This document shows, in pieces, positions 3,835 through 20,005 of a stretch of 50,451 nucleotides of DNA. The notes beneath the pieces are model-generated. The model worked only from the letters and a program-made list of their open reading frames with translations. It searched no databases and was not told where the DNA came from. Every line of letters starts with the position of its first letter. Within the stretch, counting starts at the first letter, position 1. Both the position numbers and the translations under genes were made by a program. Source of the DNA: an uncultured Oscillospiraceae bacterium (lineage in GTDB: Bacteria > Bacillota > Clostridia > Oscillospirales > Oscillospiraceae); the NCBI GenBank assembly GCA_944385795.1, contig CALWYP010000048.1, forward strand, positions 1-50,451, in the 5' to 3' direction.

Positions 3835-3854
3835 GCTGCTGTCCTCCTGTAAAA

Positions 3855-4083: not shown

Positions 4084-4635
4084 TTGGACACGATTAACCT
4101 GATTGTTTCTAAAAATATCAAGCAGGCCAGGCAGGAGAAGGGGCTCAGCCTGGAAGAGCTGGCCCGGCTCAGCGGGGTGAGCAAATCCATGCTGGCCCAG
4201 ATCGAGCGGGGCAGCGGCAACCCTTCCCTGACGACGCTATGGAAAATCGCCGATGGGATGAAGGTGCCCTTCAGCCGTTTGGTCACCCGCCCGCAGGCCC
4301 CCTATGACGTCGTCCGCATCTCGGAGCTGGACCCCATTCTGGGAGACGGGGGGAAGCTAAAAAACTACGCGCTGTTTCCCGACGGCGGCAACCAGCGCTT
4401 CAGCGTCTATTATATAGAGGTAGAGCCCGGCTACGGCTGGGCCGCAGAGCCCCATGTGCGGGAGACCGTTGAGTTTATCACCGTTTTCAGCGGCGAGCTG
4501 GAGCTGCGCATCGGCGAAAACGCTTTCCGGCTCAAGAGGGGGGAGAGCATCCGCTTCAAGGCCGACCTGCCCCACAGCTACCGCAACGCCGGCGGGGAAG
4601 CCCTCGTCTTCCACAACATCCTCTATAACCCCTGA
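4084..4635 (+). CDS. XRE-family transcriptional regulator with C-terminal cupin domain
   Basis: 183 residues from TTG 4084. Residues 8-62 form a Cro/CI-type HTH (IKQARQEKGLSLEELARLSG, then VSKSMLAQIERGSGNPSLTTLWKIADG). After a short linker the C-terminal half is a small cupin barrel (PHVRETVEFITVFSGELELRI, RGESIRFKADLPHSYRN). Proteins of this build sense a small molecule in the cupin and usually control a neighbouring amino-acid or sulfur-metabolism gene. AAGGAG at 4069-4074 stands about 10 bases before TTG 4084; an in-frame TTG at 4051 has no SD, so I prefer 4084. The divergent PatB/MalY-type lyase is the likely target. The ligand is unknown. Confidence 0.85.
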   Translation: MDTINLIVSKNIKQARQEKGLSLEELARLSGVSKSMLAQIERGSGNPSLTTLWKIADGMKVPFSRLVTRPQAPYDVVRISELDPILGDGGKLKNYALFPDGGNQRFSVYYIEVEPGYGWAAEPHVRETVEFITVFSGELELRIGENAFRLKRGESIRFKADLPHSYRNAGGEALVFHNILYNP

Positions 4636-4731: not shown

Positions 4732-6408
4732 TCACGCTTCGTCCCGGGCGCTGCAGCCGATCAGCACTGATAAATACAGCAGCGCCCTGTCCGCGCTGCT
4801 GTTCAGGTTGACTGCCAGCAGCTCGCTTATCGCCTGCATACGGTAGCAGGCGGTGTTATAGTGGATAAACAATTTCGACGCCAGCTTACGCATATTACAT
4901 TCACACTCAAAATAGCTGCGCGCGGTCAGGACATATTGGGTGTTGTAATCGCTGTCGTGCTTTTGAAGCGGCGTAAAATATCTTTGCGTGAGCCTCTCCG
5001 CCTCGCTTTTGCTTATGCTGTTGATCAGGCTGAATATGCCCAGGTCTTCAAAGAAGAGGACCCTTTTGTCGTGCAGATAGGTTTTCTTGATTTTCAGCGC
5101 GATTTTTGCCTCTTCATAGGTTTCCTTGATATCCAGAAGGTTCCTGCGGTATATCCCGGAGAACGCGCAAAGCTGGCTCGGATACAGCGCGTCGATATCC
5201 TGGATTAATTGCCCGGCGATCTGCTTGAGCATTTTGGTGGCCTTTGACGGGGCTGTAGACTGCGGGAGCTGGACGATCAGCACCATATTACTGCCGACGT
5301 TGCCGGTGTAATGCGCAGGGCACATTTTTTCTATGGAGTTTTTAACGGCGCGCTTTATGTTTTCGGTGTGCAGGTACGCTTTTGACAGGTCCTTTTCCGA
5401 CGTGTGAAAAAGGAGGTCCGCGCTTGGGTCGGCCAGAATAAGCAGGCCGACATCGGAGCGGATATTCCAGCCGATCGCCTCTAAACGCTGCCTGAGCGTG
5501 CCGTCGCTCAGTATTTTTCCCGAAAACCAGTCCGACAAAAACTCCGAACAATATCTCGTTTCAACGTCTTTGAGATTGCGCTGGTTGTAGAAAATCAGCG
5601 CAATAGTCATTGTGGCGTGCTCCAGGGATTTGAGATACTGCTCGGAAGGCAGGCCGTCGTTGCATTTCGTAATTAAGAAGCCGTTGTTTAAGCCGCCGGT
5701 TTGTATGGGGACGACGACTAAATATTGGCCGGGAGAAGCATACTTGTGTATAAGCGACTGCTTGGAGCTCAGGACCCTTTTGAATATGCCGTTTTCGTTC
5801 AAATAGTCCGTCAGCTCCTGGGGGGAGGCGCCTGCGTCCTGAGGCGACAAGCTGTATTCCAATATATCCCGGCAGTTGTCGCCGACAATAAGGACGCTGT
5901 GCTTGAAGGAGTCCTGCAGCATGTTGCAGACTTCTTTGAAGCTGCCCCCTTGTATCAGAAGATTCATCATGATTTGATGCTGCCGCTCGGATATGAGCAG
6001 CAGCTCGTTTTGTTTTTTTGTAAAAGCCTGATGTATCTCGTTGATTACGAAGGGATGCGACAGATGCGCGGGCATTTCAATAAGAGGGAAATCATAGCGG
6101 TTTGCGGCCGTAACCATTGTGTCCGGCAGCTCGGATAAAAAGCGCGGCACCTTGACCACCAGGCCCGCCAGCTTCTTCTCGGCCAATTTGGGGATTAGGG
6201 AGTCGAGGGCTTCCTTGTCGTCCTTGATGGAATACGCGGTCGTAAGAAGGAGCTGGCCTTCGCTCACCCAGCTCTCAAAATCCGGGACCTCCATGACGTT
6301 GATGTTGCTGACCTGCCGTTTCATACCGTTTTTACCGGCGACAAGTTTCAAATCCTTCAGGGAATCGAGAGCCAGTATTTCTTCTACTGTAAGTTCAAGA
6401 GGGCTCAT
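4732..6408 (-). CDS. PucR-family transcriptional regulator (purine-catabolism type)
   Basis: 558 residues. The N-terminal PucR domain (about residues 5-125) shows LTVEEILALDSLKDLKLVAG, the conserved V..I.VMEVPD..SWV..G.LLLTT and IPKLAEKKLAGLVVK. A long central GGDEF-like/linker region follows, and the last 60 residues are the HTH_30-type helix-turn-helix (ARSYFECECNMRKLASKLFI, HYNTACYRM..I). Known members such as B. subtilis PucR activate or repress purine and ureide degradation genes in response to a pathway intermediate. The frame is open to 6447 but GGAGG precedes ATG 6408 by 8 bases. It is divergent from the 12-gene ureide cluster at 6760-20005 with a 350-base intergenic region rich in symmetrical sequences, so control of that cluster is the natural inference. 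Confidence 0.88.
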   Translation of the reverse strand: MSPLELTVEEILALDSLKDLKLVAGKNGMKRQVSNINVMEVPDFESWVSEGQLLLTTAYSIKDDKEALDSLIPKLAEKKLAGLVVKVPRFLSELPDTMVTAANRYDFPLIEMPAHLSHPFVINEIHQAFTKKQNELLLISERQHQIMMNLLIQGGSFKEVCNMLQDSFKHSVLIVGDNCRDILEYSLSPQDAGASPQELTDYLNENGIFKRVLSSKQSLIHKYASPGQYLVVVPIQTGGLNNGFLITKCNDGLPSEQYLKSLEHATMTIALIFYNQRNLKDVETRYCSEFLSDWFSGKILSDGTLRQRLEAIGWNIRSDVGLLILADPSADLLFHTSEKDLSKAYLHTENIKRAVKNSIEKMCPAHYTGNVGSNMVLIVQLPQSTAPSKATKMLKQIAGQLIQDIDALYPSQLCAFSGIYRRNLLDIKETYEEAKIALKIKKTYLHDKRVLFFEDLGIFSLINSISKSEAERLTQRYFTPLQKHDSDYNTQYVLTARSYFECECNMRKLASKLFIHYNTACYRMQAISELLAVNLNSSADRALLYLSVLIGCSARDEA

Positions 6409-6759
6409 CGCGCCAGCCTCCGTGTGATAATTTGCGCCTGCATCCACCGCCCGTTATTGTTGCCGGACTATGGCGCAATTATAACATGTTATCAGGTGTC
6501 AAGACAATCCAAAGGCCGGGGAGTCCGGCATTATTGTCGTGTTGTCGGGGTTAAATAACGAATCATTGTGCAATATATATAATAATTTTGCAAATTCCGC
6601 GAGATAGCAAACTAAAACTAAGCGCGCATTTTATGATGGGTTCACAATGACAAGCGGCATACCAAAAAGATATACTGATATTAAAACCGGAGGAGTTTAA
6701 GCAGGCTTCTGCCTTGCTGATTCGAGCTCAAACTGTACGGCGTATAGGAGGATTGCCAA
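6409..6759. promoter_or_regulatory. Divergent control region between pucR-like gene and the ureide cluster
   Basis: About 350 AT-rich bases without a gene. Seen: arms ATAATTTGCGCC (6427-6438) and GGCGCAATTATAA (6472-6484), an inverted repeat with one extra base; the perfect 12-base palindrome ATAACATGTTAT at 6481-6492; nested inverted repeats GACAAT/ATTGTC (6503-6508, 6533-6538) around GCCGG/CCGGC (6515-6519, 6525-6529); and a TATAAT at 6578-6583 on the plus strand with no recognisable -35 at the right distance. A weak -35 plus upstream symmetry fits an activator-dependent promoter. Which element binds the PucR protein is not known. Confidence 0.55.
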
Positions 6760-7830
6760 ATGGAAAAATGTAAGTCTATGGTTCTGGAAAAGCCCTTTAC
6801 CATGCGCATGAAGGAATTTGACATTCCGGATGTCGCGGCGGAAGATATGCTGCTCAAGGTCGATATGGTAGGCATATGCGGCGGCGACCCTATCGAATAT
6901 GAGGGGCGCAACAAGAAGGTGCATTACCCCTTGATCCTGGGGCATGAAATGGTGGGGCGAATAGCAAAAATCGGCTCGGAAGCTCAAAAACAGGGCTTTG
7001 CGGTAGGCGACCGGGTAACTGTCGAGCCATACATTGTGTGCGGCAAATGCGAATACTGCCTCAACGGGCTATATCAGTTCTGCGAAACCTCCCGGGCCTA
7101 CGGCGTCAACATTTCATGCAACCGCCCCCCTCATTTGTTTGGAGCTTATGGGGAGTACATGTATGTAGAGCGCGGGTCCAAGGTTCACAGGATCGCCCCG
7201 GAGGTCCCGGACGAGGCGGCGTGCATGTCCTCGGTGCTGGGGAACGGGGTCCGCTGGGTGAGGACGCTGGGGCAGGTGAAATTCAGGGAAACCGTCCTTG
7301 TGCTGGGCCTGGGGGCCCAGGGGCTTGTGAGCGTCATCGCCGCGAAGGAGGCGGGCGCCGGGCCGATAATAGTGGCCGGAAAGACGCGGAATAATACAAA
7401 ATGGGAGCTGGCGAAGGAATTCGGGGCCGATTACCTGATCGACATTGATAAGACCGACGCGCTTGAAGCTATAGCAGATATCACCGGCGGGAAAATGGCG
7501 GAAGTGGTCATTGAAACCACAGGGGCAAACGCCATGATGGAGCTGGGGATAAGCGCGGCGAAGATTGCGGGCAGACTGGTTATGGCGGGCACCTGCGGAT
7601 ATGCGCAGAATTCGCTGACGACGGACCTCATTGTATTCAAGGAGCTGAAGGTCCTGGGCGGCCTCGGCCAGTCCTGGGATACGGAGATAGCCGTCGATAT
7701 AATCAACTCAAGAAAGTACCCCATTGAAAAAATGATCTCCCAGGTATTCCCCCTCGAGCGGGCCGACGAGGCCATGAAGTTCTATATGACGGAAAAGAGC
7801 AAGACGATCAGGGTCGCAATCAAGCCTTGA
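6760..7830 (+). CDS. Zinc-dependent medium-chain alcohol dehydrogenase (MDR superfamily)
   Basis: 356 residues, full length for NAD(P)-dependent Zn alcohol/polyol dehydrogenases that oxidise an alcohol to a carbonyl in the cytosol. Catalytic zinc residues are visible as C40 in VGICGGD and H62-E63 in GHEMVG; the structural zinc is held by C94, C97, C100 and C108; the Rossmann motif GLGAQG is at 183-188. AGGAGG precedes ATG by the proper distance. It is the first gene of the PucR-associated cluster, 104 bases ahead of the transporter genes. In that setting it probably oxidises a hydroxylated intermediate or reduces a carbonyl one. E. coli ureidoglycolate dehydrogenase (AllD) does an analogous step but belongs to a different family, so if this enzyme acts on a ureide it would be a non-homologous replacement. 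The substrate is unknown. Confidence 0.88.
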   Translation: MEKCKSMVLEKPFTMRMKEFDIPDVAAEDMLLKVDMVGICGGDPIEYEGRNKKVHYPLILGHEMVGRIAKIGSEAQKQGFAVGDRVTVEPYIVCGKCEYCLNGLYQFCETSRAYGVNISCNRPPHLFGAYGEYMYVERGSKVHRIAPEVPDEAACMSSVLGNGVRWVRTLGQVKFRETVLVLGLGAQGLVSVIAAKEAGAGPIIVAGKTRNNTKWELAKEFGADYLIDIDKTDALEAIADITGGKMAEVVIETTGANAMMELGISAAKIAGRLVMAGTCGYAQNSLTTDLIVFKELKVLGGLGQSWDTEIAVDIINSRKYPIEKMISQVFPLERADEAMKFYMTEKSKTIRVAIKP

Positions 7831-7933
7831 CCTGTTTCCGTGGAGGCAGGCGCCCGGAGCACAGCGTTATGGGTGGGATTTACGGCGCATAACCGCAGAG
7901 AAAGACTTTGTATTAAGAGAGGAGAAGTGAAAA

Positions 7934-8572
7934 ATGTCTGGTCACAATGACACCAACGCCACGGGCAAGAAGAAGGTATTCCAAAAATTCACCACTTCCG
8001 AGCTGGTCATCATGGCAGTTATCGGCATTGTATTCGGCGTCTGCGGAACTCCCATCGTTTTTGTAGGCAGGTTTTTCATGACCGCAATGGGCTCGGTCGG
8101 CTGGATAGGCTTTGCCGCCGTCCTCGGCTGGTTTTATCTCGCCGGCGTCCTCGGCGCGTACATCACCCGGAAGCCGGGCGCGGCGATAATCGCCGAGGTG
8201 ATAAGCGGCGTCGCGCAGATACTTTCCGGCAATCCGAACGGAGCGATCGTGCTGATCACGACCTTCCTGCAGGGCCTGATGGCGGACGCCGCCTTTGCCG
8301 TCGGCGGCTACAGGAAGTGGACCATGCCGTTTGTGTGCCTCTCGGGCGCCTCCAGCGCCCTTCTCGGGTATTGGGTTGACGCCTACTTCTTCGGGATCAC
8401 GGAGACGACCACCGCCCTCATACTTGGGGCCATCGCAGTGAGGATGCTCAGCGGCGCGCTCTTCGGCATCCTGGGCGTCGCTATATTCAAGGCCGTCGCA
8501 AAGTCGGGCGTCCTCAGAGGCACCGCCCTCGACAAGGAGGTCAGAGGGGACAAGGCCCGGCCTGCAAAATAA
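7934..8572 (+). CDS. ECF transporter substrate-binding (S) component, YkoE-like
   Basis: 212 residues with about five or six hydrophobic helices (for example around residues 27-50, 55-75, 85-105, 112-135 and 150-185) and charged tails. The pattern FTTSELVIMAVIGIVFGV near the start and the GAAIIAEVISGVAQILSGNP segment resemble YkoE (ABC_cobalt-type) S-components, best known for hydroxymethylpyrimidine/thiamine precursors. It is followed by an ATPase and a T component, giving a dedicated ECF importer. No TPP riboswitch motif is seen upstream and no thiamine gene is nearby; the location within a hydantoinase/transcarbamylase cluster suggests a heterocyclic ureide or pyrimidine-like ligand instead. 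That ligand assignment is inference; the fold assignment is fairly sure. Confidence 0.8.
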   Translation: MSGHNDTNATGKKKVFQKFTTSELVIMAVIGIVFGVCGTPIVFVGRFFMTAMGSVGWIGFAAVLGWFYLAGVLGAYITRKPGAAIIAEVISGVAQILSGNPNGAIVLITTFLQGLMADAAFAVGGYRKWTMPFVCLSGASSALLGYWVDAYFFGITETTTALILGAIAVRMLSGALFGILGVAIFKAVAKSGVLRGTALDKEVRGDKARPAK

Positions 8573-8605
8573 GCGGCAGCAGCTTTGCGCGGCGCCAACG
8601 GCTCA

Positions 8606-8647
8606 AACCGGGCACGGATTTTTCCACGCCTGCGCATGTGCCCGGTT
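8606..8647 (+). other. Intercistronic hairpin between S component and ATPase genes
   Basis: AACCGGGCAC (8606-8615) and GTGCCCGGTT (8638-8647) are perfect 10-base inverted repeats around a 22-base loop. No T run follows, so it looks like an mRNA-stability or processing element that could set S:ATPase stoichiometry rather than a terminator. Confidence 0.45.
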
Positions 8648-8717
8648 CCGGCTGTGCCATATGGCGCGGCCGCCGCGGGCCGGGCGTTCCGGCAGATACA
8701 TTTTCAGGAGAGTAAAT

Positions 8718-10475
8718 ATGAAGCCTATCATTGAAATGAAAGACGTAACGTTCACCTATCTGGGAGAGACTGAGCCGGCGCTCATCGATATCAATCTCGA
8801 GATAATGCAGGGGGATTATGTGCTCATTATGGGCCCCAGCGGCTCGGGCAAGAGCTCGCTCCTGAACATGATGAACAGCTCGGTTCCCAACATATTTGAC
8901 GGCAAGCTGGATGGGACCGTATTAATCGACGGAAAGAACAGCAAGGAATACCCTCTTGTTGAATTCGCAAAAACAGTGGGAATGGTGTTTCAGGACCCGG
9001 ATTCCCAGCTTGTAAACGTCTTTGTGAACGACGAGATATACTTTGGACCTGAAAACCTCTGTATGCCGAGGGAGGAGATACTCGCGCGCGCCGAGGACGC
9101 CATAAAGCTCACAGACATAGGCGATTTCCTGGACCAAGAGGTGTTTTACTTGTCGGGAGGCCAGAAACAGAAGCTGGCCCTGGCCGCGGTTTTGTCCATG
9201 AACCCGAAGGCGATACTCCTGGATCAGCCGACGGCCAATCTGGACCCCAAGACAAAGCTGGACGTCTTTAACCTCTTGGCTAAGCTGAACCGGGAGAAAG
9301 GGCTTACCGTGGTCGTGATTGAGCATGACGTCGACGATATAGCCGATGTGGTAAACAAGGTCGTAATAATGGACAAGGGCAGGATCGCCCATGTAGGCCC
9401 GCCGCGGGAGGTTTTTTCAAACAGCGATACGGAGTTTTCGCAAAGCCTGGGGCTTTGGGTCCCTCAGATTTCGGAGCTCGCCCTGGCGATGAAGGGCGAA
9501 ATCGATTTTGACCCTTTCCCGATAACGCCGGGAGAGGCGCTGGAGGGCTTTGCGAACAAGATCAACCAGCTCGGCGGCATGGTAGACGATCTGCCCTACG
9601 TCCCGGTCTTTGAAAGGGTAAACAGGGACGAAACGCCGCTTATCGAGGTGAAGCACCTGGACTTTTCCTACGGGGCAAGCGAAAAGAAGGCCCTCTCGGA
9701 TATAAATTTCAAGATGTATCCGGGTGAATTCCTGGCCATCCTGGGCAAAAACGGCTCGGGCAAATCCACGCTCGCCAAGGCCCTGATGAAGATAAACAAG
9801 GTCCCCAACAACAGCGTGTTCATAAACGGGAAGGACATCAACAAAATATCCCTGTATGACCTCACGAAGGACATAGGCTATGTTTTCCAGAGCCCGGACC
9901 ATCAGTTCGTTGCGGATACAGTATACGACGAGGTGGCGTACAGCCTCAGGGTCAGAGGGATGGGCGAGGAAAGCGTAAGGGAAAAAGTGGAGCCTATGCT
10001 CGAGATGTTCGGCCTCAGCGAGTTCGTAGACGTCTCCCCCTTTGCGCTCAGCATGGGGAAAAGGCGGCTGCTCAGCGTCGCCACGATGCTCGTAGTCGAG
10101 CAAAGGCTCATCATCCTTGACGAGCCCACGATCTCGCAGGACCAGGTCAGCTCCAACCTCCTTATGGGATACCTGAAAAAGCTCAACGACGCCGGGACAA
10201 GCATAATAATTATTTCCCACGATATGCGCCTCATCAGCCAGTGGGTGGACAGGGCGTATGTAATGTCAAAGTCGCGCATGCTGTTCGACGGGGACACGAG
10301 GGAAGTGTTTAACTCACCGGAGCTTCTGGAACGCGCGGCGCTGCTGCCCCCGCCGCTGTCCTCGCTCATGTGGCAGCTTAAAGACAGGGGCGTCACGGTC
10401 CCTCACACGGTGTTCACCGTTGAGAGGTTCATGGAAATCTACGAAAAGGAGAAAGCTAAGAAGTGGACGGGTTGA
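8718..10475 (+). CDS. ECF transporter fused double ATPase (YkoD-like)
   Basis: 585 residues with two ABC ATPase domains in one chain, powering the neighbouring S and T components. Domain 1 has Walker A GPSGSGKSS (39-47), signature LSGGQ (145-149) and Walker B LLDQP, in which the catalytic Glu is replaced by Q170. Domain 2 has Walker A GKNGSGKST (343-351), a degenerate signature LSMGK (444-448), an intact Walker B with E469 and an unusual D-loop SQDQ. Thus the composite site formed by Walker 1 plus signature 2 is degenerate in both halves, while Walker 2 plus signature 1 looks canonical. AGGAGAG precedes ATG 8718; an upstream frame extension to 8661 has no SD. It overlaps the T-component gene by 13 bases. 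Confidence 0.9.
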   Translation: MKPIIEMKDVTFTYLGETEPALIDINLEIMQGDYVLIMGPSGSGKSSLLNMMNSSVPNIFDGKLDGTVLIDGKNSKEYPLVEFAKTVGMVFQDPDSQLVNVFVNDEIYFGPENLCMPREEILARAEDAIKLTDIGDFLDQEVFYLSGGQKQKLALAAVLSMNPKAILLDQPTANLDPKTKLDVFNLLAKLNREKGLTVVVIEHDVDDIADVVNKVVIMDKGRIAHVGPPREVFSNSDTEFSQSLGLWVPQISELALAMKGEIDFDPFPITPGEALEGFANKINQLGGMVDDLPYVPVFERVNRDETPLIEVKHLDFSYGASEKKALSDINFKMYPGEFLAILGKNGSGKSTLAKALMKINKVPNNSVFINGKDINKISLYDLTKDIGYVFQSPDHQFVADTVYDEVAYSLRVRGMGEESVREKVEPMLEMFGLSEFVDVSPFALSMGKRRLLSVATMLVVEQRLIILDEPTISQDQVSSNLLMGYLKKLNDAGTSIIIISHDMRLISQWVDRAYVMSKSRMLFDGDTREVFNSPELLERAALLPPPLSSLMWQLKDRGVTVPHTVFTVERFMEIYEKEKAKKWTG

Positions 10476-11266
10476 TATTCCAATACAGAAAAGGCGACTC
10501 GTTTGTGCACAGGCTGGACGGGGTGACAAAGGCCCTGGCGCTGTTTGCAATATCTATTATTGTGTTTGCAAACTTCATCCTTTGGTTCCAAGTCCTAATA
10601 TGCGGGCTTTGTCTTATAATCGCCTTTTTCTTTGCAAAGCTGTCGCCGAGAGAGGTCTACCGTGGGACAAAGTGGCTGATCGTCGCCTGCATGTGCTTCT
10701 TTGTCGTCCAGACGCTGCTCCTTAATATGGACGGCGCGTCAATAGTGCTCTTTTATTTGTTCAACAAGCCCATATACTACGAGGTGGTTGATTACACGGC
10801 CGCGGTGTCAATACGCATTTATACGATATTCCTTGTCTCGTTTATCTTTATCAGGACGAGCCATCCCCGCGACCTGGTGGTGTCCTTTGTGGAGATCCTT
10901 CACATTGGCTACAGGATACCCTACGCGTTTTTTATCGCGCTGAGGATAGTCCCCATAATAGAAAACGAGGGGAGATGTATCAACGAGGCCCATATGGTCC
11001 GGGGCATCGGCAGGAAGAAGGGGCTTAAAAACGCCCTGGAGGAGCTCAAAAGGTACACCATTCCCCTGCTTATAAGAAGCCTCAGAAACGCGTCTGTTAC
11101 GACTCATTCGATGGAAAACCGCGCTTTCGGCGTATATCCGACCAGGACCTATGTCAACAGCGTAAAAATGACCACCGCCGGAAAGCTCATCTGCATATTC
11201 TTCACCCTGGCTGTGATAGGCGTATATGTGCTTGTTTTCACCGGCATCCTGCCTTTCCAGTATTAG
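10463..11266 (+). CDS. ECF transporter transmembrane (T) component, EcfT/YkoC-like
   Basis: 267 residues from GTG 10463, overlapping the ATPase gene by 13 bases, so translationally coupled. It shows the EcfT layout: an N-terminal FQYRKGDSFVHRLDGVTKAL segment (typical ..S..H.LDPR.K), hydrophobic helices at about 28-50, 55-85, 105-130 and 240-262, and the cytoplasmic coupling helices carrying MVRGIGR and SMENRAFGVY, the latter matching the A-R-x-F-G-type motif that contacts the ATPases. It completes the YkoE-type importer of this cluster. Function as T component is firm; ligand as discussed for the S component. Confidence 0.88.
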   Translation: MDGLIFQYRKGDSFVHRLDGVTKALALFAISIIVFANFILWFQVLICGLCLIIAFFFAKLSPREVYRGTKWLIVACMCFFVVQTLLLNMDGASIVLFYLFNKPIYYEVVDYTAAVSIRIYTIFLVSFIFIRTSHPRDLVVSFVEILHIGYRIPYAFFIALRIVPIIENEGRCINEAHMVRGIGRKKGLKNALEELKRYTIPLLIRSLRNASVTTHSMENRAFGVYPTRTYVNSVKMTTAGKLICIFFTLAVIGVYVLVFTGILPFQY

Positions 11267-11342
11267 CGCGCCGGCGCCCAAAGCGCGGCTAATGCCGGCA
11301 AAAGCATCAACAATTAATAATTGAATGGCAGTGGGAGACGAA

Positions 11343-12872: not shown

Positions 12873-14326
12873 TGGCAACAATGGAAAGCCTGCTGTTTGA
12901 AGACCTCAGGGTCATTAATATAGGCCTTAAATCCCTGGGTAAGGACACCTCGGGTTATGCGCCGACAGCGCTGCTGTCGTGGAGGCCCCCGGCCTGGGGG
13001 GATTCCGAGGCCGCGGCCTGCATCTCCTATTTGCACCCCGACGGCGCCGGGGACGGCATAGGGCAGAGGATCGAGAGCGCCAACAGGAGGGCTTTCGAGG
13101 CCCTGACGTCGGCGGAGCCTGTGGCGGTCGACATGCTTCCGGCCATCGACGTAATACCGGGCATGGACAAGCACACGATCCTCCATGCCGGGCCTCCCGT
13201 GGAGTGGGACGATATGTGCGGGCCTATGCGGGGCGCCGTCAAAGGGGCCATACTGTATGAAGGGCTGGCGGCAGATGAAAAAGAGGCTGAGCTGGTTGCG
13301 GCGACAAAGATAAAATACGCCTCCTGCAACGACTGCTGCGCGGTCGGGCCTATGGCGGGCATAGTTTCCGCCTCGATGCCGATGTGGGTCATTGAAAACC
13401 AGAACGACTCCAAGCGCGCGTATGTCACCATAAACGAGGGCTGGGGGCGGACCCTGCGGTTCGGCGCTTTTGATGAGGCGGTAATAAGCCGGCTGCACTG
13501 GATGGAGAAGACCCTGGCGAAGGCCCTGAAACTGACAATCCATGCTATGGGCGGGATCAACCTCAAAAGCATAATAGCGCAGGCCCTGCAGATGGGAGAC
13601 GAGTGCCACAACAGGGACATCGCAGCTACAAACCTATTCTTCAAAATGGTAACGCCGTACATATTCCACTGCGGGGAGCTGACGGAGCGGGAGAAGGGCG
13701 AGGTCATAGACTTCCTGGGCAAGCATGAGCACTTTGTCCTAAACCTTGCCATGGGAGCCTGCAAGGTTTCCCTCCTCAGCGCCTCCGACATACCCTACTG
13801 CACCATGGTGACCGCCATGGCCAGGAACGGCTGCGAAGTTGGGATAAAGGTGAGCGGGCTGGGCGACCGCTGGTTTACAGCCCCGGCGCACGTTGCGGAC
13901 GGGCTGTACTTCCCCGGATTCGGCCCGGAGGATGCGAACCCGGACATAGGAGACAGCGCCATAACCGAAACGGGGGGCATCGGAGCGTTCGCCATGGGCA
14001 CGGCGCCGGCTATAGTGCAGTTCGTCGGCGGCTCGACCGCCCAGGCGGTCAAATATACAAAGGATATGTGGCGTATTACTCTGGGCAAGCATCCGGTATA
14101 TAAGATGCCGAATCTGGCCTTCCTGGGCACCCCTGTGGGGATAGACATCAGGAAGGTCTGCGATACCAATATCCTGCCCATGATAAACACCGGCATAGCG
14201 CATAAGGAGCCCGGGCACGGCCTGGTGGGCGCCGGCATAGTCCCGGCCCCAAAGGAGTGCTTCCAGAAGGCGGTAAAAGCGTTTTGCGAGAAGTACTCTG
14301 TGGGAGGGGAGGACAAAGATGCCTGA
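12872..14326 (+). CDS. ylbE: YlbE/AllG-like DUF1116 transcarbamylase subunit
   Basis: 484 residues. The DUF1116 core is clear: LHAGPPVEWDDMCGPMRGA, AVGPMAGIVSASMPMWVIEN, NEGWGRTLRFGAF, MGDECHNRDIAATNLF, SGLGDRWFTAPAH, ANPDIGDSAITET and a C-terminal MINTGIAHKEPG..LVGAGIV. In E. coli its homologue pairs with FdrA and YlbF in oxamate carbamoyltransferase. The first 50 residues (FEDLRVINIGLKSL..., LLSWRPPAWGD) correspond to a segment that ends FdrA in E. coli, so the domain border between the two subunits is shifted. ATG 12872 overlaps the fdrA stop (TGATG) with GGAGGAGG upstream; GTG 12869 is in frame just before. It overlaps the peptidase gene by 8 bases. Confidence 0.88.
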   Translation: MATMESLLFEDLRVINIGLKSLGKDTSGYAPTALLSWRPPAWGDSEAAACISYLHPDGAGDGIGQRIESANRRAFEALTSAEPVAVDMLPAIDVIPGMDKHTILHAGPPVEWDDMCGPMRGAVKGAILYEGLAADEKEAELVAATKIKYASCNDCCAVGPMAGIVSASMPMWVIENQNDSKRAYVTINEGWGRTLRFGAFDEAVISRLHWMEKTLAKALKLTIHAMGGINLKSIIAQALQMGDECHNRDIAATNLFFKMVTPYIFHCGELTEREKGEVIDFLGKHEHFVLNLAMGACKVSLLSASDIPYCTMVTAMARNGCEVGIKVSGLGDRWFTAPAHVADGLYFPGFGPEDANPDIGDSAITETGGIGAFAMGTAPAIVQFVGGSTAQAVKYTKDMWRITLGKHPVYKMPNLAFLGTPVGIDIRKVCDTNILPMINTGIAHKEPGHGLVGAGIVPAPKECFQKAVKAFCEKYSVGGEDKDA

Positions 14327-15377
14327 AAACCTGGGCGCGCTGCTGCGCCGGCTGTGTATGCTCCGAGGGATATCGGGGCAAGAGCAGCAAGTGGCCAAAG
14401 CGATCCGCGGCAGCCTGCGGGAAACGCGTCCGGACATACTGCGCGTTGACAGGCTCGGCAACCTCTTTGCCACAAGAAGGGGAAACGGGAGCGCCCCGTC
14501 GCTCATGCTGGTGGCGCATATGGATGAAGTCGGCGCAATCGTCAGCGAGGTCTGCCCCAACGGCTTGCTGAGGTTTAAAACCGTAGGCTGTGTCAACGCT
14601 TCCACGCTGCCTTCAACCAGAGTGCGCGTAGGCGATGCCGCAGGTACGTTTACAGCCCCTCCCGCCCATACGAGCCGGGGCGGGATCTCTCCGGACGACG
14701 TTTTTGTAGACATTGGGGCGCAGTCCGATGAAGAGGTTTTCTCTATGGGCGTGAATGTCGGCAGCCAGATTACATACGACGCCCCGTTCACCCAGCTCAG
14801 TGAAAACAGGTTCTGCTCCAGGACGATAGACGACCGTATTGGTTGCGCAATACTGGTAAAGCTCTTTGAGACGCTGGGCTTTACGCCGGACGGAGACGTC
14901 ACGGTGGCCTTCAGCGTTCGGGAAGAGACGTCCATGACGGGGGCGGAGGCCCTCGCCGAACAGGTGAAGCCGGACTGGATAATAGCCGTCGACACGGTGC
15001 CGGTGAAGAAAATTGGGGCGGGCGGCCGGAGCATAGACATAGGCAAAGGCCCGGTGATCCAGCTGGGAGAGGGGGTCATGCAGGCTTTCGTAGGAAATTT
15101 TGCGACGCCCCCTGTTAAGGACGCCCTGCTGCGCGCGGCGCGGGAGGCCGGAATACCCTATCAGCTCTGCGCGGAAGTCGGCGACTGGACTACGGACGGG
15201 GCGGCCCTTCACAGGGGCAACGGCGGGACCCCCTGCGGCTATGTATCCATACCGCGGCGAAACGCCCACTCGGCGTCCGAGGTCTTCGATATACGGGACG
15301 CCATCTATGCCCTGGATCTGCTTGTAACCCTGATAACCGATATGCGCCATGTCAACCTGGACTTTGTTGGGGAATGA
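14319..15377 (+). CDS. M42-family metallo-aminopeptidase-like hydrolase
   Basis: 352 residues, the standard M42 length. Visible dinuclear-metal and catalytic positions are H67 and D69 in LVAHMDEVG, D171-D172 in RTIDDRIGC, the E202-E203 pair in REETSMTGA, D225 in IIAVDTV and a C-terminal H in RRNAHSASE. M42 enzymes are cytosolic aminopeptidases or glucanases, often tetrahedral dodecamers. The gene overlaps ylbE by 8 bases and precedes the hydantoinase by 38, so it belongs to the catabolic unit rather than general proteolysis. By position it parallels the M20 peptidase-like YgeY of urate clusters, so it may cleave an amide or ureido bond of a pathway intermediate. That role is inference; fold is firm. 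Confidence 0.87.
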   Translation: MPENLGALLRRLCMLRGISGQEQQVAKAIRGSLRETRPDILRVDRLGNLFATRRGNGSAPSLMLVAHMDEVGAIVSEVCPNGLLRFKTVGCVNASTLPSTRVRVGDAAGTFTAPPAHTSRGGISPDDVFVDIGAQSDEEVFSMGVNVGSQITYDAPFTQLSENRFCSRTIDDRIGCAILVKLFETLGFTPDGDVTVAFSVREETSMTGAEALAEQVKPDWIIAVDTVPVKKIGAGGRSIDIGKGPVIQLGEGVMQAFVGNFATPPVKDALLRAAREAGIPYQLCAEVGDWTTDGAALHRGNGGTPCGYVSIPRRNAHSASEVFDIRDAIYALDLLVTLITDMRHVNLDFVGE

Positions 15378-15415
15378 TGCCCGCAGCGCTTTCCTTTTAG
15401 GTAGGAGGAACGATA

Positions 15416-16732
15416 ATGTTGGATGTATTGATCAAAAACTGCAAAAAAGTGGAGCATGACGGCGTCACCGAGTGTTCCATAGGCGTCAAGGATGGAGTTG
15501 TCGCGGCCCTGTACGGCGTCAAGGAGATACTGCCGGACGCCCGCACGGTCATAGACGCCCAGGGGCGGTATGTCCTGCCGGGGGCGGTCGACAGCCATTC
15601 CCACATAGGCCAGCTGCCTGGCAGCGGCCAGCCCAGGCCCCAGACCCAAGAGGAAAATTTTGAGAGCGAGAGCCTGAGCGCCCTTTTTGGCGGCACCACC
15701 ACCGCCATGAACTATATCTTTACCCAGGGCTCAATCTGCCGGGAGCTGGACAGGCATCGCGCCATTGCAAAGGAATACTCCGCGCTGAGCATGTTTTTCC
15801 ACGGCGCGTTGATGAATGAAGCCCATTTGCACGAAATACCGGAGGCGGTGCGGCAGGGCGTCCGGTCTTTCAAAATCTTCCTTCCGTACAAAGGGGAGGA
15901 GGCGCTCAAGCTGGGCGGCCTAAGCAGCCTTAACGACGGGCAGCTTATAAACGCCTTCGAGCTGCTGGCAAGATATTCGGCGCTGCCAATAGTCCATGCG
16001 GAAAATCCCGAGCTCATAGACTATTATATGGAGAAATTCGAGGGGTTCGACAGGCAGGATATGGCGGCCTGGGAAGCGACGAGGCCTGGGATCGTGGAGG
16101 GCGAAGCGGTCAACAAAACCATTTACCTTGCCAAAAAATCCAAGTGCAGCGTTTGCATAGCCCATGTCAGCTCCAAAGAAGCCGTCGAGCTGATCGAAGC
16201 GGAGAAGGGCTCCGTGCTGCTTGAAACCACGCCCCACTACCTGACGCTTACGGCAGAGGCTCAAATCGGCAGCCTCGGCAAGGTCAGCCCTCCCGTGCGG
16301 CACGAGGCGGACCGGGAGAGCCTGTGGGCCTACATCGAAAAAGGCCTTCCCGTGGTCATAGGTTCGGACCACAACGCCTGGCAAAAGCAGCACAAGCAGG
16401 ACATGTGGCAGGGGCTCGCGGGGCTTCCCGGCAACGCCTATATCCTGCCCATTCTGATAAGCGAAGGGGTATACAGGCGCGGCTTGAGCTGGGAGGACGT
16501 CGTAAGGCTGACCAGCTATACCGCGGCGTGCCGGTTCGGGCTCTATCCGGGAAAGGGGACGCTGCAGGTCGGCGCCGACGCGGACCTCGCAATAATCAGC
16601 ACCGGCCTCAGCAGGAAAGTCGCCCCTCAGGAGACGGGCTCGATAGTGGACTATTCGCCTTACGCAGATTACAGTTTCTGGGCGTGGCCGGATACGGTGA
16701 TGTGCGGAGGCAGAATTTGCCGGGCAAATTAA
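15416..16732 (+). CDS. Hydantoinase/dihydropyrimidinase/allantoinase-family cyclic amidohydrolase
   Basis: 438 residues of the amidohydrolase superfamily that opens cyclic ureides (hydantoin, dihydropyrimidine, allantoin) to N-carbamoyl acids. All binuclear-zinc ligands are present: H61 and H63 in DSHSHIG, the carbamylatable K153 in SFKIF, H194 in PIVHAEN, H250 in CIAHVSS and D318 in GSDHNAW. The TTPHYLTL and VSPPVR segments are family hallmarks, and the C-terminal GTLQVGADADLAII follows. SD TAGGAGG precedes ATG. It lies between the M42 gene and the 4Fe-4S gene in tight order. It probably performs the ring-opening step that makes the ureido substrate for the FdrA/YlbE/YlbF enzyme. Which ring is opened cannot be told from sequence. 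Confidence 0.9.
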   Translation: MLDVLIKNCKKVEHDGVTECSIGVKDGVVAALYGVKEILPDARTVIDAQGRYVLPGAVDSHSHIGQLPGSGQPRPQTQEENFESESLSALFGGTTTAMNYIFTQGSICRELDRHRAIAKEYSALSMFFHGALMNEAHLHEIPEAVRQGVRSFKIFLPYKGEEALKLGGLSSLNDGQLINAFELLARYSALPIVHAENPELIDYYMEKFEGFDRQDMAAWEATRPGIVEGEAVNKTIYLAKKSKCSVCIAHVSSKEAVELIEAEKGSVLLETTPHYLTLTAEAQIGSLGKVSPPVRHEADRESLWAYIEKGLPVVIGSDHNAWQKQHKQDMWQGLAGLPGNAYILPILISEGVYRRGLSWEDVVRLTSYTAACRFGLYPGKGTLQVGADADLAIISTGLSRKVAPQETGSIVDYSPYADYSFWAWPDTVMCGGRICRAN

Positions 16733-16760
16733 AACAAAAACTGCGCTTTGGAGGTAAATA

Positions 16761-17483
16761 ATGATAGTTAACGACAGCTTGTGCGTCGGGTGCGGCGCCT
16801 GCGCCCCGTATTGCCCCATGGGCTGCATGCGCCTCAGCGGCGGGAAGATGACGATAGACCAGGACGAATGTGTGGAGTGCGAAATTTGCAGGACGATAGA
16901 CGTCTGCCCGGTAAACGCCCTGGAAATGCCGGAGCTGGGCTGGCCAAGGAGCCTGAGGAACCAGTTCTCCAACCCAACGGTGCCGCACCCGAAGACAAAC
17001 GTGCCGGGACGAGGCACCGAGGAGATGAAAACGAACGACGTCACCGGACGCTTCAGGCGCGGCCGCGTCGGCATGGCGGCCGAGCTCGGCCGGCCCGGCA
17101 CCGGGACGTTCTTTACGGACGTTGAAAAGGTAGCCATGGCCGTCGCCCCACATATCCTGGGCTTTGAAGAGCTGAACCCCGTGACGGCGCTGATGGCGGA
17201 CAAGAAGACCGGCAAGTTAAGGGACGACGTGCTCGGGGTCAAGTCGCTGTCGGCCATAGTTGAGTTCGAGGTCCTGCCGGAAAAACTTCCCGCCGTTTTG
17301 TCGGCCCTTGACGCTGTGAAAGGGCAAATTGACACGGTTTTCAGCCTGGACCTGGCCTGCCGGCTGGAAAAGGACGGTTCAAATCCCGCCGCGGACTTTG
17401 TGCGCGGCCTGGGATACTGGATCTCCCCGAACGGGAAAACCTGCGTGGGCCTTGGCAGGCCGCTGTTTAAGGAGGAAGAGTAA
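16761..17483 (+). CDS. Two-cluster 4Fe-4S protein with unrecognised C-terminal domain
   Basis: 240 residues. Residues 1-50 form a bacterial-type ferredoxin domain: C8-x2-C11-x2-C14-x3-C18-P, then C37-x2-C40-x2-C43-x5-C49-P; the second motif has five residues rather than the usual three before the last cysteine, and C22 is extra. Residues 75-240 are a separate domain that I do not recognise, with the segments NVPGRGTEEMKTNDVTGRF, RVGMAAELGRPGTGTFFTDV and VRGLGYWISPNGKTCVG. No membrane segment. It follows the hydantoinase by 28 bases and its stop overlaps the next start (TAATG), so it is probably a partner of the Cys/His-rich protein downstream. It may pass electrons to a reductive or radical step, but this is only inference. 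Confidence 0.75.
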   Translation: MIVNDSLCVGCGACAPYCPMGCMRLSGGKMTIDQDECVECEICRTIDVCPVNALEMPELGWPRSLRNQFSNPTVPHPKTNVPGRGTEEMKTNDVTGRFRRGRVGMAAELGRPGTGTFFTDVEKVAMAVAPHILGFEELNPVTALMADKKTGKLRDDVLGVKSLSAIVEFEVLPEKLPAVLSALDAVKGQIDTVFSLDLACRLEKDGSNPAADFVRGLGYWISPNGKTCVGLGRPLFKEEE

Positions 17484-18112
17484 TGTCGCATACGCTGCAC
17501 CGCAGAGGCACCGCTGAAAACCTCAAAAACGATTACGTCGTATTTGCCATCGCCGCGCAATCCGTAAACGCCGCAGGGTCTATACCCAAATTTGCGCGTT
17601 TTTTTGAAATGGCGCGCAAGTATTATCCCGAGCATATATCATCCCTGGGGGATATGAAGACAGGGAACGTGTTCCATGTGGGGCTCGAGGCGATAGAAAA
17701 AGGGTTTCGGGAAAACAGCATCGTACACGCTGTGTTTACAGACCCGGAACAAGTGGCGTCGTTCCTGTCCGAGCTGAAGGATGAGGACCTGGGGCTGTCC
17801 ATTGTGGTCTCGGGCCTGATGGAGCAGACCGCGGAATGTTGCGGGAAAAGCGGGATTATGCCTCACACCCAGGAGCACTCCATGGGGATTTGGGGCAAGA
17901 CCTCCAGGCTTCCGGAAGAAAATGTGCTTGAACTGAGCACAATGTGTGGCCACGGCATGATTTCGTTCGGAATAATAAAAAAGCAGGTCGAGCTGGTGAA
18001 GTCGGGAAAGGCAAGCCCTGAAAAAGCCGCCGCCGCCCTTGCCAGGCTCTGCCATTGCGGGGTGTTCAATCCGCAAAGGGCCGTTGAGATAATCCGGCTC
18101 ATGGCGGAATGA
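17483..18112 (+). CDS. Unrecognised Cys/His-rich cytosolic protein of the ureide cluster
   Basis: 209 residues, no signal or membrane segment, and no family I can name. The first half is alpha/beta-looking (NDYVVFAIAAQSVNAAGSIP, AVFTDPEQVASFLSELK). The second half concentrates candidate metal or cluster ligands: C119-C120, H128, H132, C155 with H157 in STMCGHGMIS, and C190-H191-C192. It starts on the last base of the preceding ferredoxin-like gene's stop (TAATG overlap), so equal, coupled expression is likely; the two may be subunits of one enzyme. Its place between hydantoinase and transcarbamylase genes points to a step in ureide breakdown. It is the least explained protein of the cluster. 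Confidence 0.7.
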   Translation: MSHTLHRRGTAENLKNDYVVFAIAAQSVNAAGSIPKFARFFEMARKYYPEHISSLGDMKTGNVFHVGLEAIEKGFRENSIVHAVFTDPEQVASFLSELKDEDLGLSIVVSGLMEQTAECCGKSGIMPHTQEHSMGIWGKTSRLPEENVLELSTMCGHGMISFGIIKKQVELVKSGKASPEKAAAALARLCHCGVFNPQRAVEIIRLMAE

Positions 18113-18149
18113 CGTAGGACGTGGGCGCCCCGGCTTCGGTGGATGATCC

Positions 18150-19064
18150 ATGAGAATAGTTGAAGCTGTTTCAATAGGTCCTGAGAGCCGGAAAAGCCTG
18201 CCCGCTGAAGGCCGCCTCTGCGGAAGCGTTGTCGGGGCATACAGCAGAGGGCTATATTACCAGCTTGGGAGCGGGACATATATGATACATGACCGGCGGG
18301 ATGGGCGGGTCCCCTTTGGGATTGAGCTGGACGGGTTCGCCCTGGCCGTGCCCCCCTGCCGGTGCCGGGAAGGCGACCCCGTCATGGTATCCCCGTGGCG
18401 GGTACAGCTGGGGCGAAACCCCCTCGCCATTATCGTGCGGGACGAAGGGTGCGCGCCTTCAAGCGGCAAAATGCTGTCGGGACCGGATGAAATGATGGAG
18501 CGGGCGCGCGAAATGCAGGGCTTTCTCAACGCCGGCCGCGGCGGCTGGTTAAACGCTTTGCGCCGCGAGGAGCGGGGCCCCGGAAAAGGCGGTTCGGGCC
18601 TTCTACGCCGGATAGAGAGGGAGAAGGCCCGGCTCCTCGGCGGCCTGGCCTCCGGCAGGGCGGAAGAGGTGCGGCTTGCTCTCAGGGGGCTGATTGGCCT
18701 TGGGATAGGGCTAACGCCTTCTATGGACGACTGGCTGGTCGGGTTTGTGTACGCTCTGAGGAGGGCCCCGTCAAGCGGGCGGGAAGCCGAACTGCTGAGC
18801 GGCTCCATATTGCGCGCCTGCCTGGAAGGCCGCACCAACCTAATAAGCAGCGCGTATCTCCAGGGCGCAGCCGGAGGAGGGTATTTTGAGCGGCTGGATC
18901 TATGCCTTAATGAAGGCGGCCGGCATAGCATGGAGTCCCTGTCAAGGATAGGCAGCAGCTCCGGCATGGACATGCTGGAAGGGATGTGCGCGGCGTTGAA
19001 ATATGCGATTAACGCTTCGCTTGGGAAAAACGCGATATTGGACGATTGGGAACAAAGCATATGA
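18150..19064 (+). CDS. ylbF: YlbF/AllH-like DUF2877 transcarbamylase subunit
   Basis: 304 residues. The DUF2877 marks are GLGIGLTPSMDDWLVGFVYA (usually GLGPGLTPSGDDFL.G) and IGSSSGMDMLEGM near the C-terminus. In E. coli the homologue is the third component of oxamate carbamoyltransferase with FdrA and YlbE. Here it is separated from those two by the peptidase, hydantoinase and Fe-S genes, but it stays on the same transcript and its stop overlaps the carbamate kinase start (ATGA). The start at ATG 18150 has only a weak SD (GGTGGATGATCC), so initiation may be low. Short basic low-complexity stretches (RREERGPGKGGSG) mid-protein are not typical. The family call is good; the role follows from the operon. 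Confidence 0.82.
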   Translation: MRIVEAVSIGPESRKSLPAEGRLCGSVVGAYSRGLYYQLGSGTYMIHDRRDGRVPFGIELDGFALAVPPCRCREGDPVMVSPWRVQLGRNPLAIIVRDEGCAPSSGKMLSGPDEMMERAREMQGFLNAGRGGWLNALRREERGPGKGGSGLLRRIEREKARLLGGLASGRAEEVRLALRGLIGLGIGLTPSMDDWLVGFVYALRRAPSSGREAELLSGSILRACLEGRTNLISSAYLQGAAGGGYFERLDLCLNEGGRHSMESLSRIGSSSGMDMLEGMCAALKYAINASLGKNAILDDWEQSI

Positions 19065-20005
19065 GTGGAAAGAAGATTGTAATTGCCTTAGGCGGCAACG
19101 CGCTGCAGCCGGCCGGAGAAGAGCTTAGCGCAGAAACCCAGCTGCGGGCGCTTGAAAAGACTTGCCGCAGCCTGTCAGAGATATGCGCTTTGGGCTATAG
19201 AATAGTTATCGTACACGGGAACGGGCCGCAGATCGGCAGAATAGTCCAGGTCGAAGAGGAAGCTGAGCCGTGGACCTCCCCGATGCCTTTCGACGTATGC
19301 GGAGCAATGAGCCAGGGATATATAGGTTATCAGCTCCAGCAAATGCTTGATAACGAAAACCTCCTGCGCGGGATCGACGTCCCGGTGTCAACAGTAATCA
19401 CGCAGGTGGTGGTGGACAGGGACGATCCAGCCTTTCTGCATCCGACCAAGCCGATAGGGGCGTTTTATTCGCCTTGCGCGGCGCGCCGGCTGGCCGCGGA
19501 AAAGGGCTACGAGATGGCGGAAGACTCGGGAAGGGGATGGAGGAGGGTAGTCCCTTCCCCGCGCCCCATAAAAATAGTGGAGTTGGACTCGATACGGGAA
19601 TTGAGCGAAAAGGGCGTTGTTATCGCCTGCGGAGGCGGCGGGGTCCCAATTATTGAAGGCTCTGCACACGGCTACCGCGGTATTCCGGCGGTGATTGATA
19701 AGGACCACGCCGCGAGGCTGTTGGCGGACGAGCTGGACGCCGATATTCTGCTGATCCTGACGGGAGTAGAGCAGGTGTGCCTGGATTACAACACGGAAAA
19801 GCAAAAGGCGCTGTCCAGGCTCGACCCGGCGCAGGCGGAAAAGTACATAGAGGAGGGGCAATTCGCGCCGGGGAGCATGCTTCCCAAGGTGCGCTCCGCC
19901 GTGGATTTTGTCCGCAATAAACCCGGAAGGAAGGCCGTGATCACTTCGCTTGACCGGGCCCTGGACGCGCTGAACGGAACTGCCGGAACAGTCTTTGAAG
20001 GCTAG
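19061..20005 (+). CDS. arcC: Carbamate kinase
   Basis: 314 residues, the regular length. It shows the amino-acid-kinase fold marks IVIALGGNAL at the start, VIVHGNGPQIG, PVSTVITQVVVD, ACGGGGVPI, VIDKDHAARLLADEL and a C-terminal AVDFVRNKPGRKAVIT. The enzyme converts carbamoyl phosphate plus ADP to ATP, CO2 and ammonia. ATG 19061 overlaps the ylbF-like stop by ATGA; the frame's earlier TTG 19046 is not favoured. As last gene of the cluster it provides the energy payoff for the FdrA/YlbE/YlbF transcarbamylase, as AllK does in E. coli allantoin fermentation. No arginine deiminase genes are nearby, so a role in arginine breakdown is unlikely. Confidence 0.93.
   Translation: MSGKKIVIALGGNALQPAGEELSAETQLRALEKTCRSLSEICALGYRIVIVHGNGPQIGRIVQVEEEAEPWTSPMPFDVCGAMSQGYIGYQLQQMLDNENLLRGIDVPVSTVITQVVVDRDDPAFLHPTKPIGAFYSPCAARRLAAEKGYEMAEDSGRGWRRVVPSPRPIKIVELDSIRELSEKGVVIACGGGGVPIIEGSAHGYRGIPAVIDKDHAARLLADELDADILLILTGVEQVCLDYNTEKQKALSRLDPAQAEKYIEEGQFAPGSMLPKVRSAVDFVRNKPGRKAVITSLDRALDALNGTAGTVFEG

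Follow-up and report, generated by a model that had tools for sequence, protein, structure and literature searches.

A 50,451-nucleotide stretch of DNA from an uncultured Oscillospiraceae bacterium (GenBank assembly GCA_944385795.1, contig CALWYP010000048.1), referred to here in its entirety as ‘the window’, carries at positions 4732–20005 a cluster of 13 genes that may encode the breakdown of a cyclic ureide. The reading we favor, tentatively and at a little short of even, is that the cluster represents a conserved anaerobic catabolism of a pyrimidine- or hydantoin-type cyclic ureide, distinct from the allantoin and urate routes already known. The gene set is conserved and, apparently, undescribed; no description of it was seen among the open-access PubMed Central (PMC) papers listed. 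A preliminary description of the window, made from its letters, placed here a PucR-type regulator divergent from 12 co-directional genes, and coordinates and strands agree for all 13:

4732..6447, minus strand: PucR-family regulator, divergent (PF07905, 120.1 bits, E = 8.1e-35; HTH_30, E = 3.4e-16)
6760..7830, plus: Zn-dependent dehydrogenase (ZnDH) of the medium-chain (MDR) type (ADH_N and ADH_zinc_N)
7934..8572, plus: S component, YkoE type, of an energy-coupling factor (ECF) transporter (PF09819, 90.8 bits, 9.5e-26)
8661..10475, plus: ECF double ATPase (two ABC_tran stretches); the true start may be the second in-frame ATG, near 8718
10463..11266, plus: ECF T component, CbiQ type (PF02361, 2.1e-21)
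11325..12872, plus: AllF (FdrA) (NCBIfam FdrA NF004760, 492.7 bits, cutoff 433)
12869..14326, plus: AllG (YlbE) (PF06545, 290.5 bits against a cutoff of 27, 9.5e-87)
14319..15377, plus: M42-family metallohydrolase (PF05343, 224.9 bits, 1.5e-66)
15416..16732, plus: cyclic amidohydrolase of the hydantoinase/dihydropyrimidinase/allantoinase fold, ‘hydantoinase’ below (PF01979, 77.5 bits)
16761..17483, plus: P2, a 2x[4Fe-4S] ferredoxin domain joined to a domain of ~180 aa with the motif GRGTEEMKTN
17483..18112, plus: P1, an orphan partner with three invariant cysteines (C155, C190, C192)
18150..19064, plus: AllH (YlbF) (PF11392, 60.4 bits against a cutoff of 25, 3.2e-16)
19046..20005, plus: carbamate-kinase-like gene (PF00696, amino-acid kinase, 96.4 bits, 2.9e-27)

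The family names given in that description are borne out by profile matches (Pfam and NCBIfam) and, for the carbamate kinase, by phmmer, which scores it at 195.1 bits to Escherichia coli AllK and 303 bits to the gene that occupies the YqeA position in E. coli. To call the genes ‘mostly overlapping’ was slightly too strong: five of the 11 junctions overlap, by 1–19 nt, and six are gaps of 28–103 nt. All three subunits of oxamic transcarbamylase (AllF, AllG and AllH) are encoded together, and the YkoE-type ECF transporter is complete, with its PF09819 S component, ATPases and CbiQ-type T component. We take the substrate of such transporters to be thiamin-pyrimidine. For P1, neither Pfam (up to E = 1) nor NCBIfam gives a match.

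Six loci, from Bacillota and Chloroflexota, have in common AllF, AllG, the M42 enzyme, a cyclic amidohydrolase, P2 and P1, and a short-chain dehydrogenase/reductase (SDR), ZnDH, or both. These ‘window-type’ loci are the window itself, L129 (genome G659), L149 (G643), L156 (G777), L063 and L068. The neighborhood is not a chance one, because the set is shared by six loci in two phyla. The preliminary description allowed that the genes might prove to occur apart and never together; we find them kept as a unit in both phyla. The P2 second domain was searched against named genomes, giving at least 593 candidate stretches, at least 248 of them encoding relatives; the best 80 yielded 79 loci. Five of these 79 carry window genes beyond P1 and weak dehydrogenase or ATPase matches:

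L015: YkoE, EcfAA, EcfT, SDR, AllF, AllG, M42, hydantoinase, P2, P1
L024: P2, P1, ZnDH, YkoE, EcfAA, EcfT, hydantoinase, PucR
L020: P2, P1, ZnDH, and the start of AllF at the contig end
L063 (Chloroflexota): SDR, ZnDH, AllF, P2, P1, AllG, M42, hydantoinase, then a FAH-family gene and uridine phosphorylase
L068 (Chloroflexota): SDR, hydantoinase, P2, P1, ZnDH, AllF in two frames, AllG, M42

The two overlapping AllF frames of L068 (5905–7457; 121 and 396 aa) reflect a sequencing error or a gene that is split. G643 (L024/L149) and G777 (L015/L156) appear in both the P2 search and the AllG search described below, and G659 came via AllG; L063 and L068 were found by the P2 search alone, and their P2–P1 content is biased accordingly. 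A PucR-family gene also adjoins the cluster in L024 (280 bits), L156/L201 (157) and L193 (289). The best-conserved gene of the window is ZnDH, 59–68% identical to its counterparts in L024, L193, L063 and L068, and the SDR, which the window lacks, is 58–69% identical among the relatives when compared from L129. Across the five relatives, identity to the window is 52–60% for AllG, 40–48% for AllF, 37–47% for M42, 47–58% for P2 and 41–59% for P1, and for the hydantoinase it is 57–59% within Bacillota. From these comparisons, the stable core would seem to consist of the dehydrogenases and AllG; the enzyme assigned to ring opening diverges from one phylum to the other.

AllG sets these loci apart from others of its family. 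PF06545 matches 60 of the 398 genomes of the phylum sample, presumed to be Bacillota, the window's own included. Sixty stretches of up to 20 kb around AllG were taken from 54 of the 59 other genomes (G481, G528, G652, G684 and G835 were left out; six genomes gave two). One stretch, L175, had no AllG match in the scan, leaving 59: three window-type (L129, L149 and L156) and 56 others, of which 52 are at least 10 kb long and some come from close relatives; the window-type loci alone were read past the stretch ends. The hydantoinase (at least 300 bits), EcfT (at least 45 bits) and SDR (at least 300 bits) are each present in all three window-type stretches and in none of the 56. M42 (at least 100 bits) occurs in 3/3 versus 1/56 (L132), and any match to the hydantoinase, AllB or HyuA (at least 100 bits) in 3/3 versus 2/56. 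The reverse holds for xanthine dehydrogenase (XDH) subunits (0/3 versus 26/56), AllC (0/3 versus 3/56) and carbamate kinase (0/3 versus 29/56); PucR occurs in 2/3 versus 42/56. ZnDH (at least 300 bits) is in neither set (0/3, 0/56); for two of the window-type stretches it lies outside, in L193 (G659) and L024 (G643). P2–P1 is within one of the three window-type stretches and none of the others, and just outside it in the remaining two (G659, C1:701278, where the stretch begins downstream at 703200; and G643, C54:49913).

When 64 AllG proteins were placed in a maximum-likelihood tree, the six window-type sequences fell into one group (support 100/99). E. coli AllG is joined (100/100) to L145, a locus of the window's own order that is linked to AllC, and the window's AllG does not group with this characterized enzyme. 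G643 and G659 each carry a second, XDH-linked AllFG (L148 and L128); the presence of two types within one genome probably means, therefore, that their substrates differ. Elsewhere in the survey (L120–L179), a frequent arrangement is PucR–AllH–AllF–AllG–carbamate kinase with XDH-type subunits and often a XanQ-like permease, which is present in 18 of the 56 stretches that are not window-type. In L158 and L163 two AllG genes stand next to each other and to AllF, and the stretch also carries allB- and allC-like genes; this is an allantoin-type cluster with duplicated AllG.

The preliminary description held that the genes defining the known allantoin and urate routes are missing, and at the sensitivity used here this stands. 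When 22 E. coli allantoin and urate proteins were run against the window by phmmer (E ≤ 1e-8), five matched: AllF (308.0 bits), AllG (372.0), AllK, and AllB (136.5) and HyuA (140.8), both of the latter to the hydantoinase-fold gene. No match at this threshold was obtained in the window to AllA, AllC, AllD, AllE or Gcl, or to YgfK, SsnA, YgeX, YgeY, YgeW, XdhB or XdhD. The test is of limited depth, because even E. coli AllH fails to find its counterpart in the window. A search of the rest of the window's genome (G000, 87% complete) turned up nothing that matches E. coli AllC and a single Ldh_2 gene (AllD family); the latter is on a different contig, ~5 kb away from genes that by eye resemble 2-oxoacid:ferredoxin oxidoreductase. 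The cyclic amidohydrolase scores below the cutoff of every one of the 25 NCBIfam models listed, including those for allantoinase (245.2 and 231.8 bits; cutoffs 631 and 357.85) and dihydropyrimidinase (250.5 and 240.5 bits; cutoff 393.25 for the latter model). Six of its residues that we take to be the metal ligands of the fold (H61, H63, K153, H194, H250 and D318) are kept in all seven aligned rows.

Several relatives combine the set with sugar and nucleoside genes. In G659 (L193 and L129 coordinates), a run on one strand reads PucR, P2, P1, ZnDH, a putative S component (a hydrophobic protein without Pfam match), EcfA, EcfA, EcfT, PfkB, SIS, BtpA, DeoC, SDR, AllF, AllG, M42, AllH and hydantoinase; carbamate kinase is not present in this run. 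Its DeoC is above the curated cutoff (274.1 versus 117.3). L063 has PfkB-like, SIS (GlmS-like) and BtpA/SgcQ genes upstream, and its downstream uridine phosphorylase is narrowly above cutoff (281.3 versus 280.3). The ring hydrolase of L068 exceeds the dihydropyrimidinase cutoff (400.3 versus 393.25), and a sugar-type ATP-binding cassette (ABC) transporter follows the cluster. These genes point to a pyrimidine- or nucleoside-linked ureide as a candidate substrate. A short contig of the L068 genome (L196, contig C44) encodes PfkB-like (199 bits), uridine-phosphorylase-like (211), YgeW-like carbamoyltransferase (156) and BtpA (140) proteins. Open-access PMC literature on BtpA, SgcQ and SgcX, and on sugar deglycases with hydantoin, yielded no function.

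The preliminary description counted the Fe–S protein and its orphan neighbor, P2 and P1, as parts of the ureide catabolic cluster. They prove instead to be a two-gene module of many anaerobes that is not specific to ureides. P1 is present in 78 of the 79 P2 loci, the exception being L065, and lies directly downstream of P2 in 96 of 101 P2 matches, at a median spacing of 4 nt. The other five are L030 and L076, where the stretch stops short; L065, with 479 nt left and no P1 match; L059, with an extra partial P2; and L007, where an opposite-strand gene intervenes (at 11422–14425, where minus-strand P1 and P2 are split by a 402-aa gene, transposase-like by eye). P2 and P1 of L043 have coordinates identical to those in L009 (G023:C94), which is from the window's family. 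In that family's sample, P1 is found in four of 101 genomes, the window's own included; G051, of the same genus, is without it. P2 has eight invariant cysteines, as for two [4Fe-4S] sites, together with invariant G83, R84, G85, T86, E88 and K90 (94 rows). In P1 the invariant cysteines fall in a (T)(M)CGH motif and a CxC pair (96 rows); we would guess that the three hold an open-site cluster.

AlphaFold2 models of both proteins are confident (pLDDT 90.5 for P2 and 94.8 for P1), and a fold search of the Protein Data Bank (PDB) found for them no clear solved fold beyond the ferredoxin domain. The 50 rows listed for P2 are mostly ferredoxin domains (best E 0.0033), with a few weak alpha/beta matches, including aspartokinase regulatory (ACT) domains at E ~0.1; the best PDB match for P1 has E 0.061. 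Sequence profiles run against solved structures gave a single match for the P2 second domain, to a putative glycerate kinase (2b8n; E 0.011, 56 columns), and for P1 a best E of 0.17 (XPA).

When families shared by at least four loci are labeled, the commonest neighbors of P2–P1 in 82 stretches are TctA (26), TctC (24), MDR dehydrogenases (16), CooF-like ferredoxins and TctB (15 each), pyridine-nucleotide reductase (14), prismane/CO-dehydrogenase (CODH)-family proteins, GntR regulators and AOR (12 each), and DctM and HIBADH-family dehydrogenases (11 each). A CooF-like ferredoxin and a prismane/CODH-family protein are joined to P2–P1 in 12 loci (L009, L025, L029, L045, L052, L054, L067, L073, L082, L084, L087 and L088), with pyridine-nucleotide reductase in 11 of the 12 and a Tct gene in four. 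A PanB-family gene (ketopantoate hydroxymethyltransferase) shares the stretch with P2–P1 in L028, L036, L075 and L085, and directly adjoins the pair in L028 (PF02548, 340.9 bits), L075 and one L085 copy. We considered P2–P1 as a ureide-specific partner and rejected this: in a tree of 95 pairs, the seven window-type pairs need five label changes, at least two of them forced by starred branches (a quick method, SH-aLRT only). The label is nonetheless partly clustered, since just four of 500 shuffles need as few changes. We read P2–P1, from its contexts and this tree, as probably a general enzyme that has been recruited repeatedly. The idea of a split 6-hydroxynicotinate reductase was prompted by PF01979 amidohydrolase and HIBADH neighbors in L028, L044, L049, L053 and L075, and found no support overall. 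Among solved structures, the closest listed to the L028 amidohydrolase is a Xaa-Pro dipeptidase entry, and its 19 listed matches (E ≤ 1e-10) include none named as an enamidase; the first match of the L053 HIBADH is 2-hydroxymethylglutarate dehydrogenase, which lends the idea weak support.

How might such a set of enzymes work? The YkoE-type ECF transporter would import the ring, and the hydantoinase-fold enzyme would open it to a ureido compound. ZnDH (in the window), or SDR or both (in relatives), may oxidize the ureido-bearing carbon to give an acyl-urea, as AllD does with ureidoglycolate. A carbinol-urea produced by ring opening would, by analogy, be brought in this way into AllFGH chemistry: in E. 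coli, AllFGH interconverts oxalurate plus phosphate and oxamate plus carbamoyl phosphate (PMC11326118, in excerpt). AllF, AllG and AllH would thus phosphorolyze the acyl-urea to an amide and carbamoyl phosphate, from which a carbamate kinase, encoded in the window cluster and, in the relatives, elsewhere in the genome or not at all, could make ATP. The M42 enzyme would hydrolyze the amide, and P2–P1, to judge from its many other contexts, might act on the remaining small acid or another common intermediate. In some relatives the ring may enter as a nucleoside-like sugar conjugate, the sugar being handled by PfkB, SIS, BtpA and DeoC or by uridine phosphorylase. The proposed route would use the hydantoinase, ZnDH/SDR, AllFGH and the M42 enzyme (as amidase) once each. 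A bolder version, which as a whole we consider somewhat unlikely, is an undescribed fermentation of pyrimidine-type or modified-nucleoside bases that bypasses the reductive (dihydropyrimidine) and aerobic (barbiturate) routes. Here, ring opening and NAD-linked oxidation would give an acyl-urea, and AllFGH, with new specificity, carbamoyl phosphate; P2–P1 would be a new class of Fe–S enzyme serving small organic acids across anaerobes, in which a two-cluster ferredoxin domain feeds an open-site cluster held by three cysteines.

Several observations weigh against a cyclic-ureide pathway of this kind. Carbamate kinase is inside the cluster in one locus of the six, the window; AllH is present in three (the window, L129 and L149) and was not found in L156, L063 or L068. 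The energy story therefore has a weak point, and the recovery of ATP through carbamate kinase, as put forward in the preliminary description, is weakened. The hydantoinase is 30–33% identical between the window and Chloroflexota, no closer than to E. coli AllB and HyuA (30%). P2–P1 also occurs by tricarboxylate and TRAP transporters and by CO-dehydrogenase-like, AOR and hydroxyacid genes, and so is not specific to the pathway. The window cluster has none of the sugar genes PfkB, SIS, BtpA and DeoC. BtpA occurs in four genomes and adjoins the cluster in just two (G659 and L063); in the other two, G643 and the L068 genome, it is on other contigs, away from the cluster, and G000 and G777 lack it. 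The sugar part is therefore not universal. Finally, the order of the steps is one that we infer, and the window is one contig of a draft metagenome-assembled genome (MAG), 87% complete and 5.16% contaminated.

The main and closest alternative is an allantoin pathway with non-orthologous replacements, in which the hydantoinase stands in for AllB, the M42 enzyme for AllC and ZnDH/SDR for AllD, followed by ordinary oxamic transcarbamylase and carbamate kinase. The enzyme types do map stepwise onto AllB–AllC–AllD–AllFGHK, the hydantoinase scores about equally on allantoinase and dihydropyrimidinase models, and M42 and M20 metallopeptidases are, we presume, one clan. But the window's AllG lies outside the E. 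coli and AllC-linked clades, AllC is still recognizable in each of the three sampled stretches that bear it (L145, 246 bits; L158, 242; L163, 237), AllE has no match in the window at E 1e-8, and the sugar and nucleoside genes of some relatives are ill-suited to allantoin; on balance we think it unlikely. The sugar and nucleoside genes suggest, in turn, that the ureide might be a glycosylated compound or modified nucleoside whose sugar is the main prize, the ureide branch merely removing the base. PfkB, SIS, BtpA and DeoC inside the G659 run argue for this, as do the sugar genes and uridine phosphorylase flanking L063 and the transporter after L068. The clusters of the window and of L015/L156 do without such genes, however, and BtpA is missing or remote in the four genomes named above, and this explanation seems to us quite unlikely.

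A reductive pyrimidine route would assign P2–P1 the role of a ferredoxin-linked ring reductase, the hydantoinase that of opening the dihydropyrimidine, and AllFGH that of phosphorolyzing the N-carbamoyl beta-amino acid directly. It is in keeping with the 2[4Fe-4S] ferredoxin domain of P2, and a ferredoxin-dependent dihydropyrimidine dehydrogenase is reportedly known from a Clostridium. Ferredoxin has also been proposed as the donor for urate reduction in C. difficile (PMC12507026, in excerpt). Yet P2–P1 lies by TctABC/TRAP, CODH-like, AOR and hydroxyacid genes in many loci without a labeled ring hydrolase, the window-type pairs do not form one clade, and no role is left for ZnDH, SDR and M42, all of which makes this route improbable. 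That the cluster is an ordinary patchwork of co-located genes of unlike functions, or a mis-binned contig, might be supposed from the contamination of the draft MAG and from the scarcity of P1 in the family and its absence from G051. A set kept in two phyla, a monophyletic AllG and the strong contrast with other AllG stretches render this very improbable. Breakdown of the riboflavin ring was set aside: the words FdrA, hydantoinase, carbamate kinase, YkoE and oxamate do not occur in the retrieved text of PMC12934955, a preprint about how riboflavin is degraded anaerobically.

Around the cluster, just beyond PucR, lie an HTH_3–cupin regulator (4051–4635) and a class I/II aminotransferase (2647–3858) encoded on the strand opposite to it. 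An apparently complete branched-chain-type ABC importer (22358–27352; binding protein PF13458, permeases and ATPases by eye) is on the same strand ~2.3 kb downstream, and between it and the cluster is an opposite-strand PALP enzyme (20211–21584), TrpB-like by eye. By eye, a ParB-like gene at 1438–2415 resembles a partial gene (L202, 14885–15287) that this genome carries on its contig C81, which hints mildly at correct binning of the window contig.

The assignment of AllFGH as an oxamate enzyme dates only from 2024. A separate AllFG clade is tied to a different conserved enzyme set, and therefore the AllFG family probably serves several acyl-urea substrates. If so, genomes annotated with ‘oxamate carbamoyltransferase’ would be misread as those of allantoin users. 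P2–P1, for its part, is widespread among anaerobes and, its ferredoxin domain aside, belongs to no Pfam or NCBIfam family; its contexts supply concrete candidate substrates.

Compared with the anaerobic allantoin system of E. coli (allFGHK and allBCDE), the window shares AllF, AllG, AllH, a carbamate-kinase-like gene and, earlier in the logic, a cyclic amidohydrolase. It differs in having AllG of a separate clade and no match to AllC, AllD or AllE, and in their place an ECF importer, M42, ZnDH (or SDR, in relatives) and P2–P1. With the reductive urate cluster of E. coli and Clostridia (XdhD, YgfK, SsnA, HyuA, YgeW, YgeY and YgeX) it shares a logic of ring hydrolase, metallohydrolase, transcarbamylase and kinase; that route employs other families (PMC12507026; PMC12990295, both in excerpt). 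Its transcarbamylase, YgeW, is unrelated (PF00185, ornithine transcarbamylase-like), and the window has no match to XdhB, XdhD, YgfK, SsnA, YgeX, YgeW or YgeY. In nitrifiers, AllFGHK accompanies biuret genes, outside a full allantoin pathway, and in some archaea a FAH-family gene is nearby, as in L063; these systems differ in their biuret and triuret hydrolases, and the word hydantoinase is absent from the retrieved text (PMC12625717, in excerpt). The PucR–AllH–AllF–AllG–carbamate kinase–XDH clusters of the same phylum share PucR, AllF, AllG and often AllH and carbamate kinase with the window. They have molybdenum-hydroxylase-type subunits, often a XanQ-like permease, and AllG of other clades, where the window has instead the ECF transporter, hydantoinase, M42 enzyme and dehydrogenases.

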